64,000 bases of DNA. It comes from Streptomyces sp. NBC_00414 (GTDB taxonomy: Bacteria; Actinomycetota; Actinomycetes; Streptomycetales; Streptomycetaceae). This document shows, piece after piece, positions 2,096 to 6,627 of this stretch. How positions within the stretch are numbered: position 1 is the stretch's first letter; each line of letters begins with the position of its first letter. Made by a program: the position numbers and the translations under genes. Location: NCBI RefSeq assembly GCF_036038375.1, contig NZ_CP107935.1, positions 4,650,001 through 4,714,000 of the forward strand, in the 5' to 3' direction. The notes under the pieces were generated by a model that made no database searches, was not told the DNA's origin, and saw only the letters and a list, made by a program, of their open reading frames with translations.

Positions 2096-5053
2096 ATGGA
2101 CGGTGTACCGCGGGTACCGGAGCAGTGGAGTCCCGAGGAATCGGTGGCCCTGCGCTTCAGCGTGCTCGGCCCGGTGCGCGCCTGGCGCGGGGCACAGGCG
2201 CTGCCCACGGGCTCCCCTCAACAACGCGCCCTGCTGGCCGCCCTGTTGATCCGTGAGGGCCGGACGGCCACGGCAGGCGAGCTGATCGACGCCCTGTGGG
2301 GCGACGATCCACCCTCCCAGGCGCTGGCGGCCGTACGCACGTACGCCTCCCGGCTGCGCAAGATCCTCTCCCCCGGCGTCCTGGTCAGCGAGTCCGGCGG
2401 CTACGCGATCCGGCTCACCGACGCCTCCGGCGGGGGCGGCACCCTGGACCTCGCCCTGGCGCAGGAGCTGGCGGCCGACGCGGAGAAGGCGAAGAACGGC
2501 GGCGACCTCTGCCACGCGCGCGCCCTGCTGAACAAGGCGCTGAACCTGTGGGACGGGGAAGAGCTGGCGAGCGTTCCGGGCCCGTACGCGGAAGCCCAGC
2601 GCGCCCGGCTGCAGGAGTGGAAGCTCCAGCTCACCGAGACACGCCTGGACATGGACCTCGAACAGGGCTGCCACGCCGAGGCCGTCTCGGAACTCACCGC
2701 GCTCACCGCGGCGCACCCCCTGCGGGAGCGGCTGCGCGAACTGCTGATGCTGGCGCTGTACCGCTCGGGCCGGCAGGCGGAGGCCCTCGCCGCGTACGCG
2801 GACACCCGACGGCTGCTCGCGGACGAACTGGGCGTCGACCCCAGCCCGGACCTCCAGGAACTCCAGCAGCGCATCCTGCAGGCCGACCCCGGCCTCGCCG
2901 AACCCTCGGCGCCGCTGGTCACCGAGACCGCGGCCACCCCGGTACGCCCGGCCCAACTCCCCGCGACCGTCCCGGACTTCACCGGCCGCACATCCTTCGT
3001 GTCCGAACTGTGCGACGTCCTCGCGACCGCCGAGGGCCGCGTGATGGCGGTGTCCGCGCTGGCGGGCATCGGCGGCGTGGGCAAGACCACACTGGCCGTC
3101 CACGTCGCGCACCAGGCCCGCGGGGCCTTCCCCGACGGACAGCTGTACGTGGACCTGCAGGGCGCGGGCTCGCGGGCCGCCGCGCCTGAGGCGGTACTGG
3201 GCGCCTTCCTGCGCGCGCTCGGCACCGCGGACTCGGCCATTCCGGACTCCCTGGAGGAGCGGGCGGCCCTGTACCGCTCGGTGCTGGACGGCCGCCGGGT
3301 CCTGGTGCTCCTCGACAACGCCCGGGACGCGGCCCAGGTCCGGCCCCTGCTGCCCGGCACCGAGGGCTGCGCCGCGCTGGTGACCTCCCGGGTCCGGATG
3401 GTCGACCTGGCCGGCGCGCACCTGGTCGACCTCGACGTGATGTCGCCGGAGGAGGCGCTCCAGCTCTTCACGAAGATCGTCGGTACGGAACGGGTGGAGT
3501 CGGAGCGTCAGTCGGCGCTGGACGTCGTGGCGGCCTGCGGCTTCCTGCCGCTGGCCATCCGCATCGCCGCCTCCCGGCTGGCCGCCCGGCGCACCTGGAC
3601 CGTCTCGGTCCTGGCGGCGAAGCTCGCGGACGAGCGGCGCCGCCTGGACGAGCTCCAGGCCGGCGACCTGGCCGTGAAGGCCACCTTCGAGCTGGGCTAC
3701 GGGCAGCTGGAGTCGGCCCAGGCCCGCGCCTTCCGGCTGCTGGGTCTCGCGGACGGCCCGGACATGTCCCTGGCGGCGGCCGCCGCGGTCCTCGACCTGC
3801 CCGTCGAGGAGACCGAGGAACTGCTTGAGTCCCTCGTCGACACCTCGCTGCTGGAGTCGGCCGCGCCCGGCCGCTACCGCTACCACGACCTGGTCCGGCT
3901 CTACGCGCGTGCCTGCGCCGAGCGGGACGAGCAGCCACCGGGCGAGCGGGCCGCCGCGATGTCGCGCCTGCTCGACTTCTACCTGGCCACCGCCGCGGGC
4001 GTCTACGCGATCGAGCGGCCCGGCGACCGGCTGGTGGACCACCTGGAGACCACGGAGTACCCGGGGCTGACCTTCTCGGGAGGCAGCGCCGCCCTCGACT
4101 GGCTCTACACGGAGGCCGCGCCCCTGCTGGCCTGCGTACGGCAGTCGGCGGGTACGGATCTGCTGCGGCGGGCGGTGGACCTGCTGTGGGCCGCCAGGGA
4201 CCTCGCCGAGTCGGGAGCCAACTCCCATCAGTACGAGACGACCGCCAGGGCGATGTGCGACGCCACACGGGCCGCCGGGGACGCCCACGCGGAGGGCAGA
4301 GCGCGGACCACGCTGACCCACCCGCTGCTGGTGTCAGGGCGGATCCAGCAGGCGGCCGAGCAGGCCCAGCTCGCCCTGGAACTGGCCGCCTCCGCCCAGG
4401 ACGCCATGGCCATGAGCTGGGCGGCCAACGACCGCGGGCTCACGCTCATGCACCAGGACCAGTTCGCCAGCGGCAAGCCGTACTTCGAGCGGGCGATAGA
4501 GGGATACGCCGCGATCGGCAACAAGCCGCTCGAAGCGCTCAGCCTGTGCAACCTCTCGCGCGCGCACCTGGGAATGGGAAACATCCCCATGTCGGTGGAG
4601 ATCGCGCAGCGCGCCCTCTCGGCGTACCTGGAGATCGGCAAGACCCTGCGTCTCGCCAACGGCTACTTCACCCTGGGCATCGCCCTGGCCAGGGCGGGCC
4701 GGCACACCGAGTCGCTCAGCCAGCTCTCCGACGCCCTGTCCGTCTTCGGCAGCCACCGGCAGCGGCTCTGGGAGGGGACCACCAACTTCCGCATGGCCGA
4801 GGTGCATCTGGACGCCCGGCGGCCCGCCCAGGCCGCCCAGCACGCCGAGCAGGCACTCGCGCTCGGCTGTATCGGGGGCGACCGGATGCAGGGCGTCGTG
4901 CTGACGCTGCTCGGCCGGGCACTCACCATGCTGGGGCAGGTGGACCGGGCCAGGGCCTGCTGGCGCGAGGCGCTCAACCTGCTGGAGCAGAACGGCGGCT
5001 CCGCACAGGCCGAGGAGGTCCGGGCACTGCTCACACCTGCCACGGCCGCGTAG
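2096..5053 (+). CDS. afsR: AfsR-like SARP transcriptional regulator (BTAD, NB-ARC, TPR)
   Basis: A 985-residue regulator close in length to AfsR of S. coelicolor (about 993). Domains in order: OmpR-like winged helix (about 20-115), bacterial transcriptional activator domain (about 120-270), NB-ARC ATPase (about 295-600) with P-loop GIGGVGKTT at 324-332 and a LVLLDNARD Walker-B-type strand, then TPR-like helices to the C-terminus. In Streptomyces, AfsR is phosphorylated on Ser/Thr by AfsK, binds the afsS promoter with ATP dependence and stimulates antibiotic production. The ATG at 2096 follows GGGGGACAG. The assignment rests on the domain order, the immediately downstream afsS-like gene with AfsR-type direct repeats before it, and an afsK-like kinase at 21.8-24.2 kb. 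A paralogous large SARP remains possible but is less likely in this context. Confidence 0.9.
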   Translation: MDGVPRVPEQWSPEESVALRFSVLGPVRAWRGAQALPTGSPQQRALLAALLIREGRTATAGELIDALWGDDPPSQALAAVRTYASRLRKILSPGVLVSESGGYAIRLTDASGGGGTLDLALAQELAADAEKAKNGGDLCHARALLNKALNLWDGEELASVPGPYAEAQRARLQEWKLQLTETRLDMDLEQGCHAEAVSELTALTAAHPLRERLRELLMLALYRSGRQAEALAAYADTRRLLADELGVDPSPDLQELQQRILQADPGLAEPSAPLVTETAATPVRPAQLPATVPDFTGRTSFVSELCDVLATAEGRVMAVSALAGIGGVGKTTLAVHVAHQARGAFPDGQLYVDLQGAGSRAAAPEAVLGAFLRALGTADSAIPDSLEERAALYRSVLDGRRVLVLLDNARDAAQVRPLLPGTEGCAALVTSRVRMVDLAGAHLVDLDVMSPEEALQLFTKIVGTERVESERQSALDVVAACGFLPLAIRIAASRLAARRTWTVSVLAAKLADERRRLDELQAGDLAVKATFELGYGQLESAQARAFRLLGLADGPDMSLAAAAAVLDLPVEETEELLESLVDTSLLESAAPGRYRYHDLVRLYARACAERDEQPPGERAAAMSRLLDFYLATAAGVYAIERPGDRLVDHLETTEYPGLTFSGGSAALDWLYTEAAPLLACVRQSAGTDLLRRAVDLLWAARDLAESGANSHQYETTARAMCDATRAAGDAHAEGRARTTLTHPLLVSGRIQQAAEQAQLALELAASAQDAMAMSWAANDRGLTLMHQDQFASGKPYFERAIEGYAAIGNKPLEALSLCNLSRAHLGMGNIPMSVEIAQRALSAYLEIGKTLRLANGYFTLGIALARAGRHTESLSQLSDALSVFGSHRQRLWEGTTNFRMAEVHLDARRPAQAAQHAEQALALGCIGGDRMQGVVLTLLGRALTMLGQVDRARACWREALNLLEQNGGSAQAEEVRALLTPATAA

Positions 5054-5084
5054 CCGCCAGGCCCGTGACCATGCTGTTGCGGAC

Positions 5085-5106
5085 GTTCAGCATTCGTTTA
5101 TCTCCG
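5085..5106 (+). promoter_or_regulatory. Putative AfsR/PhoP binding direct repeats in the afsS promoter
   Basis: Two adjacent 11-bp direct repeats, GTTCAGCATTC and GTTTATCTCCG, each starting GTTYA. This matches the 11-bp periodicity and GTTCA core known for PhoP boxes and for AfsR sites upstream of afsS in S. coelicolor. A TCATAT-like -10 lies about 12-15 bp downstream (around 5118-5123), which is the close SARP-box/-10 arrangement used by SARP activators. Inference from pattern only. Confidence 0.55.
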
Positions 5107-5266
5107 CGCGGCACTCTCATATCTGTCACACCGTCGCGTCGGGGGGCAGACGGTCTGACCAGGAGCCAAACCGGCTGATGTGCGGCTCCGAACGCCCGTC
5201 CAGCGGCCCTCGGGGGAGTCTCTGGGCGGGCGTTCCTCACTCGTCAACACAACGGAGGACCAGCAC

Positions 5267-5512
5267 ATGAGCGACCGGACGAAGGACACGAACCCCACCG
5301 CGACGACGCAGGACAACGGGATGCCCACGCCGCCGGCGAAGGACCCGGTGGCCACTCCGCTCGACAACGGGATGCCCACGCCTCCCGCCGAGGACCCGGT
5401 CGTCACCCCGCTCGACAACGGGATGCCCACTCCTCCCGCCGAGAGCGACATCCGGACACTGGACAACGGCATGCCCGCCCCGCCCGCCCTGGGCCTCGAC
5501 GGCGGCAAGTAG
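5267..5512 (+). CDS. afsS: AfsS-like small repeat protein
   Basis: An 81-residue acidic, soluble protein made almost wholly of four repeats of DNGMPTPPA or DNGMPAPPA starting at residues 16, 33, 50 and 66, separated by 16-17 residues. AfsS (AfsR2) of S. coelicolor is a 63-residue protein with three repeats of a similar motif and lies directly downstream of afsR. It is the target of AfsR and a global stimulator of antibiotic synthesis with no known enzymatic activity. Here the gene starts 213 bp after afsR, behind AfsR-type direct repeats, with ACGGAGGACCAGCAC before the ATG. The extra repeat makes it longer than the classical protein. Function is inferred from position and repeat type. Confidence 0.82.
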   Translation: MSDRTKDTNPTATTQDNGMPTPPAKDPVATPLDNGMPTPPAEDPVVTPLDNGMPTPPAESDIRTLDNGMPAPPALGLDGGK

Positions 5513-5531
5513 ACCAATCTCCCGACGGGGA

Positions 5532-5570
5532 TCGGCCGCGGTGGCGCGGAGGGGGAGCCACCGCGGCCGA
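5532..5570 (+). terminator. Strong hairpin terminator after afsS
   Basis: A perfect 14-bp inverted repeat (TCGGCCGCGGTGGC at 5532-5545 and its complement at 5557-5570) with an 11-nt loop, 19 bp after the afsS stop codon. There is no T-run, as is common for GC-rich actinobacterial terminators. Confidence 0.8.
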
Positions 5571-5695
5571 AGTCTGTCCGGGGCAGGATCCGGCCGATCG
5601 GCGGCGCGAACCGTTTCGATGCGGCGGGACGTAACACCCGAACACCGGACCGGCGTTCTTCGGCGTCGGCGGTTCCCTCTCACCCAGGAGTCGGT

Positions 5696-5854
5696 ATGAC
5701 CCGCGCACAGAGGTTCCTCACCACGCTCACCCTGATACTCGGCGTCGGCGCCGTGGCCGCGAGCCCGGCACTGGCCGACAACTCCATGCCCGTGCCCGCG
5801 CCGGACGACACCGCGACCGTGACCGTGACCGTACCGGCCGTCCCGGCGCCCTGA
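5696..5854 (+). CDS. Small secreted peptide with an AfsS-type DNxMPxP motif
   Basis: A 52-residue open frame starting at ATG 5696 behind CCAGGAGTCGGT, a good ribosome site. Residues 1-27 form a signal peptide (basic MTRAQR, hydrophobic LTTLTLILGVGAVAA core, AxA-type cleavage at SPALA). The predicted mature peptide is about 25 residues, starts DNSMPVPAP and continues with Thr/Val and Pro-rich sequence. The first mature residues repeat the DNxMPxP motif that fills AfsS just upstream. I know of no function. Its place between the afsS terminator and its own hairpin suggests a separate transcript. A hypothetical gene also lies between afsS and afsK in S. coelicolor; whether it is the same gene needs comparison. 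Confidence 0.65.
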   Translation: MTRAQRFLTTLTLILGVGAVAASPALADNSMPVPAPDDTATVTVTVPAVPAP

Positions 5855-5871
5855 CGGACCGCCACCACGGC

Positions 5872-5907
5872 AGGGCCGAGTCCGCGGCATCCACCCGGCT
5901 CGGCCCT
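5872..5907 (+). terminator. Hairpin after the small secreted peptide gene
   Basis: Arms AGGGCCGAG (5872-5880) and CTCGGCCCT (5899-5907) pair perfectly over 9 bp around an 18-nt loop, 17 bp after the stop codon of the peptide gene. Confidence 0.5.
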
Positions 5908-6007
5908 TCGTCGTGCCCGGCGGGCGTCCGCGGTACGGCCGGAAGTCGCCGCCGGTGTGCTCAGCCCCTCGCGGGGACCGCCCGCACGCCGTACTCTGCG
6001 CAGCACG

Positions 6008-6367
6008 ATGACAGCACAGCCCATCGAGCCCGGCAGACCTCTCGTTCCGCGGCCGGAACGGACACCCGGCGCCCTTCGCGCGGCCGTCCTCCGTGTTGCC
6101 CCGCATCGGCTGGCCGAGCTGGAGCGGGAGACCGACGGGGCCATCGCGGTCGCCGCGCGCACCGGGAGTCTCGGGCCGATCATCCAGCTTCTCGACAACT
6201 GGGCCGTCACCGTGGAGATCGCGCGGTTTCCGTCCACGGCGGCGCGGCTTCGCAAGGCCGAGCACACGGTGGGGGCCGTGGGGCGGGGGGCTCCCGCTCG
6301 GCGGGGAGCTCGGGACGAGATCCACGCGCTTCGGGCGGCGGCGCGGGAGTCGCTCAGCCGGGGCTGA
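6008..6367 (+). CDS. DUF6247-like small protein
   Basis: A 119-residue protein starting with MTAQPIEPGRPLVP. The middle part (about residues 20-75) shows the pattern RTPGALRAAVLRVAPHRLAE, then an acidic helix, then LLDNWAVTVEIARFPSTAARL, which I associate with the DUF6247 family of small actinobacterial proteins. Members are often found near toxin-antitoxin-like genes, but no partner is visible here. The C-terminal third is Arg/Ala rich. A longer upstream in-frame start exists but the ATG at 6008 fits the conserved region best. Function unknown. Confidence 0.6.
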   Translation: MTAQPIEPGRPLVPRPERTPGALRAAVLRVAPHRLAELERETDGAIAVAARTGSLGPIIQLLDNWAVTVEIARFPSTAARLRKAEHTVGAVGRGAPARRGARDEIHALRAAARESLSRG

Positions 6368-6461
6368 GCGGTTGCGTGTCCACGGGGCGGGGTTGTCGCG
6401 GCCCGGGGCGCCGCCTCGCGGCCCTTCCAGGCTTGGCCGGGTGGGATGTGCGGGTCCGCTC

Positions 6462-6616
6462 GCGCAGTTCCCCGCGCCCCTCAAGAGCCGGGGCCGGATC
6501 GCATATGCGGGGCCGTTGTCGCTGGACTCGCGCAGTTCCCCGCGCCCCTCAAGAGCCGGGGCCAGATCGCATGTGCGGGCCGTTGTCGCTGGACTCGCGC
6601 AGTTCCCCGCGCCCCT
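6462..6616 (+). repeat. Repeat block A: three copies of the GCGCAGTTCCCCGCGCCCCT element
   Basis: Three same-orientation copies start at 6462, 6530 and 6597, so the block is a roughly 67-bp tandem repeat whose spacers (CAAGAGCCGGGGCC and following) are also conserved. It lies in the 260-bp gap between two convergent genes and contains no gene. Confidence 0.85.
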
Positions 6617-6627
6617 TGTGTGGCTTG

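Follow-up and report, generated by a model that had tools for sequence, protein, structure and literature searches.

The window, i.e., the whole stretch of 64,000 nucleotides that was analyzed, carries afsR, afsS, a small peptide gene, and a DUF6247 gene in this order, all on the forward strand. The features referred to below are as follows.

2096..5053, + strand: afsR, encoding a regulator of 985 aa with the layout SARP - NOD (NB-ARC, STAND ATPase) - arm - TPR
3926..5050, + strand: segment of afsR for the arm and TPR domains (residues 611-985); this half, the sensor, is variable and co-varies with the word in AfsS
5084..5105, + strand: AfsR-type operator (afs box-like direct repeats) with a GTTCA-N6-GTTTA core at 5085-5100, upstream of afsS
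5267..5512, + strand: afsS, 81 aa, with four copies of the word
5312..5326, + strand: AfsS word copy 1, DNGMP
5363..5377, + strand: AfsS word copy 2, DNGMP
5414..5428, + strand: AfsS word copy 3, DNGMP
5462..5476, + strand: AfsS word copy 4, DNGMP
5533..5569, no strand: perfect 13-bp inverted repeat without a T-run, between afsS and the peptide gene, read from the sequence
5696..5854, + strand: peptide gene (52 aa, Sec-type signal sequence), recognized by its ORF, codon-position G+C, and relatives
5696..5776, + strand: predicted signal peptide of 27 aa ending in ALA (our own rules: charge, hydrophobic core, AxA site)
5777..5791, + strand: word DNSMP at the predicted mature N terminus
6011-6367, + strand: DUF6247 gene (Pfam, 28.4 bits; cut-off, 26.9)

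The afsR product scored 1708.9 bits against the NCBIfam family SARPRegAfsRStmc (NF053617; cut-off, 1430) and the afsS product 116.8 bits against RegAfsSStmc (NF053616; cut-off, 60), which places them in the AfsR and AfsS families, respectively. Pfam recognized BTAD, NB-ARC, and TPR domains in AfsR, and PDB entries 8k60 and 8jke were sequence matches of the same protein. The operator pattern, akin to the afs box described in PMC10936776, lies 182 nt upstream of the afsS start. A GTTYA-N6-GTTYA pattern was found upstream of afsS in 54 of 56 loci versus upstream of the peptide gene in 0 of 56, and an AfsR operator common to the two genes was rejected on this count. An earlier note on this DNA had read four DNGMPxPP repeats in AfsS; those starting at residues 16, 33, and 50 are DNGMPTPP, and the last one, at residue 66, is DNGMPAPP. 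In the intergenic part at 6460-6620, near-identical stretches (GCGCAGTTCCCCGCGCCCCTCAAGAGCCGGGGCC...) recur within about 100 bases.

The 52-residue gene that the earlier note had reported next to afsS, with a signal peptide followed by DNSMPVPAP, also held up at 5696-5854 under our rule-based signal prediction. Its product reads MTRAQRFLTTLTLILGVGAVAASPALA, then DNSMPVPAPDDTATVTVTVPAVPAP, the predicted mature part starting with DNSMPVPAP, and an AGGAG ribosome-binding site precedes the ATG. Its G+C content by codon position (0.69/0.60/0.92) is like that of afsS (0.67/0.57/0.94) and unlike that of the spacer at 5513-5695 (0.70/0.72/0.72). The peptide matched no NCBIfam family at an E value of ≤1, hence not AfsS (NF053616) either, and its only match in Pfam was a sub-threshold one to TrbC. 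The gene had been described as following directly after a terminator; the 13-bp inverted repeat does stand between the genes, but a scan of 5050-6020 for T-run terminators and sigma-70-like promoters found none. The shared motif proved as unusual as had been supposed: the 10.35-Mb genome contains five matches to the DNxMPxP pattern (GAYAAYNNNATGCCNNNNCC), four within afsS and one at the predicted mature start of the peptide, with no occurrence on the other strand or in a backwards control of the whole genome and a chance expectation of 0.63 for both strands by a simple base-composition estimate. As a family member the window peptide is poor, with a single word, and the two words of the window differ at position 3 (DNGMP in AfsS, DNSMP in the peptide). 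Presence of the frame in related genomes had been named as a test, and it was passed in part. The gene follows afsS in Streptomyces dioscori A217 (L292, DNSMP), S. albicerus (L241, DNPMP twice), genome G324 (L323, DNSMP), and genome G127 (L219, DNPMP three times), but no peptide gene was found by the scan after afsS in S. aurantiacus (L242).

To place this gene in the genus, where afsR is present in 198 of 199 genomes, the 2 kb downstream of afsR were surveyed at 149 places in other genomes and in the window; three of these 150 regions (L113, L182, and L199) were too short to judge, leaving 147 usable ones. A scan for a signal sequence plus word flagged 36 of the 150 regions and also 18 antisense control regions. 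The flagged regions were therefore read singly and 21 were kept; with L181, which a profile search contributed, about 22 of the 147 usable regions carry a peptide gene beside afsS; most sampled species have afsS with no detected peptide. Among 80 named afsR loci, the scan yielded six credible peptides, from S. albicerus, S. shenzhenensis, S. dioscori, and three strains (L241, L255, L292, L286, L287, and L308). A profile built from 17 peptides was searched in 392 genus genomes, 70 loci were fetched from further cases, and 60 AfsS/peptide pairs were curated, four of them from named loci. Iterating the profile recruited AfsS itself after one round, and later rounds were excluded from the peptide counts. 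Across the order, 25 of 147 genomes had matches, all of them in Streptomyces, i.e., one of five genera, the absence from the other genera being weak as their genome numbers were not listed. A simple search with the window peptide hit 151 of 199 genomes at an E value of ≤1, mostly noise.

The peptides have a median length of 59 residues (range, 41 to 110), carry one to seven words, and start a median of 196 nt (121 to 340) after the afsS stop codon; the L220 peptide, DTHIS-VTPQ-DTHIS-VTPQ-DTHIS, is typical. In 54 of 60 peptides, a word starts 0 to 2 residues past an AxA/AxS site; this figure is inflated by the choice of profile, as the pairs came mostly from one that already contained words. 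The C terminus falls exactly on a word in 22 of 60 peptides versus 0 of 60 AfsS proteins. Decayed remnants of a peptide gene, with the word DSHMP or DSHAP and a broken leader, follow afsS at L153 and L157, which suggests repeated loss of the gene.

Several observations were made alongside the survey. Genome G127 has two afsR-type genes (L168 and L170), both above the family cut-off, and in the pattern scan afsS and a peptide adjoin only the L168 copy. AfsS is enlarged to about eight or nine GDHHTP-type repeats at L129 and L143. At L233 (genome G097), an exported protein carries four DxH-type words and then a longer C-terminal part (KWGRVGTWGPYKNG...), apparently away from afsS. Five places in genome G371 (L330-L334), as well as L356, encode secreted small proteins whose mature parts start like DRNQTV, DRNNTI, or NNHGTM. 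At L331-L334 and L356, large proteins of the same type neighbor them on the opposite strand; in the two cases tested (L332 and L334), the protein was HTH_31 plus nSTAND1. This is a second example of a STAND protein paired with an exported peptide that bears words.

In each species, AfsS carries several copies of one five-residue word, DNGMP in the window and DNHAP, NTHVT, DSHMP, ENHAG, and others elsewhere, and these copies change between species as a unit. The peptides follow the AfsS of their own genome, position 3 being uninformative in the test of AfsS against peptide since the word pattern demands His there or certain M/P forms. For the 60 pairs, the best 7-mer score of own partners was 31.7 versus 22.55 under permutation (standard deviation, 0.68; maximum, 25.17; 20,000 permutations). 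For 39 peptides, the own AfsS was one of the five best-scoring of the 60. Compared with the peptide of the nearest relative, the own partner did better in 31, equally well in 14, and worse in 11 of 56 cases (P = 2e-4), 4 of the 60 pairs having been left out for too little afsR. Over the 56 loci, the peptide-word distance correlated with the AfsS-word distance (r = 0.65) and with the TPR distance (r = 0.42); as an internal control, the distance between signal peptides hardly correlated with the AfsS word (r = 0.086). Rare words have switched jointly in AfsS and peptide, as in DEQMPAPSP/DEHLPAPSP (L344), ERHQT/ERHQS (L328), NNHGT/NNHSS (L350), DSTRPI/DSTMPI (L338 and L340), and LEDSHIT/LEDGHIT (L349). 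The pattern LEDxHIT occurs seven times in genome G344, always at this locus, and in none of the other seven genomes searched.

Such likeness might also arise if the peptide were an evolutionary by-product with no role of its own, its afsS repeats having been copied behind a signal sequence and kept alike by gene conversion. The absence of peptides from most sampled species and the remnants at L153 and L157 fit this idea, as do dN/dS values that are not low in several close pairs (window versus L323: dN, 0.27; dS, 0.23). The window and S. dioscori peptides, at a dN of 0.085 and a dS of 0.177, do not, and neither do the codons. Identity at 4-fold sites is 0.57 within AfsS and 0.51 between AfsS and its own peptide, barely above the 0.46 against other genomes, whereas conversion would copy codons. 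Because the repeat codons are not homogenized, the word likeness appears to be kept by selection at the protein level and not by DNA conversion; pure gene conversion was dropped as the main cause, and we rate the by-product explanation as a whole as quite unlikely.

Since afsS and the peptide gene adjoin afsR, the AfsS word was next compared with AfsR domain by domain. From the window and the 80 named loci, a biased sample in that they were the top AfsR matches to the window, 75 gave a word and 72 also a clean AfsR; 6 of the 80 named loci were excluded for lack of a script-found word and 3 for gapped AfsR rows. The word distance correlated with the distance of the TPR (Mantel r = 0.779) and arm (r = 0.592) but not with that of the SARP or NOD domains (r = -0.010 for each), and the partial r of the TPR given the rest of AfsR was 0.752 (P = 0.001). 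In sliding windows along AfsR, the correlation breaks near residue 630; the NOD/arm border of S. coelicolor AfsR is given as residue 618 in PMC10936776. The loci form nine TPR clusters with one word kind in each, and word-class changes number 5 on the TPR tree versus 25 on the SARP+NOD tree. In a replicate set of 71 other loci, obtained after 16 of 87 had been removed because they duplicated named loci or one another, the correlation with the sensor half was again present (r = 0.559; permutation maximum, 0.122), despite noise from at least three loci (L218, L348, and L349) at which the script read the peptide word for the AfsS word.

This covariation bears on a further idea, namely, that the words bind metal, with mature D-x-His ends acting like the Cu/Ni-binding ATCUN motif and the AfsS repeats binding the same ion inside the cell. 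Many mature ends do read D-x-H after the predicted cut (DNH, DSH, DTH, and DQH). The ATCUN motif consists of a free N-terminal X-X-His, though, and the window peptide, which starts DNSMP, lacks the His, as do its relatives; AfsS words like DSTRP have neither His nor Met, and metal binding would leave the AfsR covariation unexplained. ATCUN-type binding was dropped for these missing ligands, and we consider a metal role highly improbable.

A stronger challenge is that the afsR sensor half, afsS, and the peptide gene recombine between species as one cassette, in which case the covariation would reflect linkage and contact would not be needed. TPR and NOD distances are indeed uncorrelated (r = 0.03), pairs at a NOD distance of 0.03 reaching a TPR distance of 0.5. 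The word shows weak correlations with synonymous 4-fold TPR sites (0.22) and with the afsR-afsS intergenic region (0.25), from which some cassette transfer is taken to occur. The amino acid signal nevertheless survived both controls, with a TPR partial r of 0.775 given the synonymous TPR distance and 0.772 given the intergenic distance, and the intergenic region sits between the two co-varying parts. The signal peptides at the far end of the putative cassette hardly track the word (the 0.086 above), and linkage alone leaves the joint change of three to six word copies unexplained.

Residue couplings speak to the same question. They were chosen from the 72 loci before being looked up in the other 71. 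In the 72 loci, Thr at word position 5 went with Gly853 in 23 of 23 cases and Pro with Leu853 in 42 of 43; His at position 3 went with Ser, Ala, or Asn at residue 815 in 48 of 48 and any other residue with Leu, Thr, or Val in 24 of 24; and Asn at position 2 went with Gln712 in 40 of 42. The 71 other loci gave 16 of 21 for Thr with Gly853, 45 of 46 for Pro with Leu, Ile, or Val, 55 of 57 for His with Ser, Ala, or Asn815, 12 of 14 for other residues with Thr or Leu, and 21 of 28 loci having a letter for Asn with Gln712, so that several couplings hold in an independent set. On the SARP+NOD tree, the independent pairs agreeing were on average 10.6 of 11 for residue 815, 10.3 of 12 for residue 712, and 5.5 of 6 for residue 924, with none opposite, a count that cannot tell binding from cassette transfer. 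The TPR tree offered only three independent pairs, for position 2 and residue 712, too few for a test, which leaves the cassette explanation that much room. Within TPR clusters at a distance of 0.35, P ≤ 0.01 for position 2 was reached by 24 of 138 arm, 27 of 194 TPR, 1 of 150 SARP, and 2 of 135 NOD columns; at 0.25 (34 loci), the column signal was nearly gone, and word position 5 is invariant within TPR clusters. Helix A of the TPRs was not significantly enriched in covarying columns (17 of 80 versus 10 of 83; P = 0.14). On balance, we find it unlikely that cassette transfer alone produced the pattern.

Structure models were then consulted. The AlphaFold chain consisted of sensor, spacer, and AfsS joined by read-through, as afsR and afsS share a frame. 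The sensor half was modeled at high confidence as helical repeats; the AfsS repeats came out disordered in this chain (pLDDT of about 36), giving no support for docking. An AfsS-only control reached a pLDDT of about 67 with a separate alignment, hence no fair comparison with the read-through chain. In a Foldseek search with the modeled sensor, the nearest folds to the prediction were peptide-binding TPR domains (LGN complexes first; KLC), and a phage Rap with its pheromone appeared at rank 46 (E value, 4.6e-5).

From these comparisons, we hold it as nearly certain that one word is repeated in AfsS and varies as a unit, that the neighboring peptides match it, and that it tracks the arm-TPR half of AfsR and not the SARP or NOD domains. 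The earlier note had suggested a common binding partner for AfsS and the peptide. The covariation backs a shared partner, the best-supported candidate being AfsR itself through its arm-TPR half; the binding as such is what we infer. Direct binding of the word to the TPR sensor is probable in our view. AfsS would then be a multivalent ligand inside the cell: AfsR activates afsS, and AfsS would feed back on AfsR through its several words, in a manner that may be activating or inhibiting. Where the gene exists, the exported peptide could be cleaved into pieces containing the word, which would return to the cell or be sensed in another way and act as a pheromone-like signal at the same sensor, a step to which we give slightly less than even odds. 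In this way the peptide would add the word from outside or during export, and the extracellular signal linked to the AfsK/AfsR/AfsS cascade that the earlier note had proposed is compatible with the data. The main reading, to which we assign a probability of roughly 55%, is that the word is a ligand of the AfsR sensor with AfsS as its carrier, plus some role of the exported peptide at the shared receptor. Species-specific words might in that case be "pherotypes." Going further, the AfsR locus might be a case of pherotype quorum sensing in Actinomycetota, a genus-wide, species-coded peptide language on top of antibiotic control in which the Sec-exported peptide would broadcast the word in roughly one species in seven; this is tentative, and we lean against it.

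The same matching words could also mean that the peptide precursor competes with AfsS for AfsR inside the cell and that export removes words, so that the cell would read its secretion rate or growth phase with no outside signal involved. The word is shared with AfsS, 54 of 60 peptides (the inflated figure given above) have it adjacent to the predicted cut, and no uptake system is linked to the locus. Sec precursors do not usually persist in the cytosol, though, and many peptides hold two to seven words across the mature part, with 22 of 60 ending on a word, like a substrate for trimming. We judge this precursor role improbable.

Against the sensor-ligand reading stand the lack of docking, the weak residue-level signal within close TPR clusters, the lack of significant enrichment in helix A, the rarity of the peptide and its lack of an operator, the mismatch at position 3 in the window, and an output of AfsS of its own. 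Such an output besides feedback on AfsR follows from PMC8290100, in which constitutive afsS alone led to actinorhodin overproduction and AfsS is called the final activator, and from one review (PMC6988585), according to which AfsS binds upstream of pathway regulators. According to PMC10972967, it is unknown how AfsS acts; PMC10936776 reports that the SARP domain is inhibited by NOD and TPR and says of inducer binding to the AfsR sensor that it "remains elusive." AfsR and AfsS act high up in the control of antibiotic production in Streptomyces, and if the word is the sensor ligand, the action of AfsS and the inducer of AfsR become one question. Species-specific words, if true, may explain why activation tricks with AfsR/AfsS could succeed in some species but not in others, and matched peptides could serve to wake silent antibiotic clusters. 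The exported copy of the word would be a first candidate for peptide signaling in the AfsR/AfsS cascade.

Neither an exported peptide next to afsS nor a role of AfsS as an AfsR ligand turned up in the literature searched, which mostly excludes subscription journals. The locus agrees with the AfsK-AfsR-AfsS cascade of S. coelicolor in that afsR and afsS are family members by NCBIfam and an afs box precedes afsS. Because a primer in PMC2267785 reads TTMDNHM in our own translation, the AfsS word of S. coelicolor is probably DNHM(P). Among STAND proteins, MalT and GutR likewise have a C-terminal sensor beyond the nucleotide switch that is opened by an inducer (PMC10936776); the proposed inducer of AfsR differs from that of MalT in being a protein or peptide word encoded next door and not a sugar. 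FxSxx-COOH and HaaA cyclophane RiPP systems, going by NCBIfam names, also tie TPR proteins to small peptides, but AfsR scored below the cut-offs of their TPR proteins (FxSxx_TPR, 88.6 of 300 bits; HaaT, 284.4 of 1125), and the AfsR-locus peptides have Sec-type signals.

In agr and comQXP pherotype loci, a variable sensor half co-varies with a variable ligand while the effector half is conserved. The AfsR locus has the same split, the word co-varying with the sensor half and not with the effector half (SARP and NOD), but its sensor is a cytoplasmic TPR, its ligand would be linear, and no processing enzyme is linked. In RRNPP systems of Bacillota (Rap-Phr, PlcR-PapR, NprR, and PrgX), a TPR receptor adjoins a Sec-exported propeptide of 10 to 100 aa (PMC10075063), and tandem pheromone copies in one propeptide are known (PMC11343458). 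The window peptide, with 52 aa and a rule-based signal sequence, falls within this description, with afsS lying between the receptor and propeptide genes; short words and the fold match of the AfsR sensor model to phage Rap are further points of likeness. RRNPP receptors have 250 to 500 aa with peptide-binding TPRs, but AfsR, a STAND ATPase, has 985 aa and includes SARP and NB-ARC domains, and a cytoplasmic multicopy carrier, AfsS, stands between receptor and propeptide here. Signals of Actinomycetota are described in PMC10075063 as typically small molecules. By analogy, RRNPP would be the nearest working model for the AfsR locus, though AfsR falls outside the RRNPP receptor definition.
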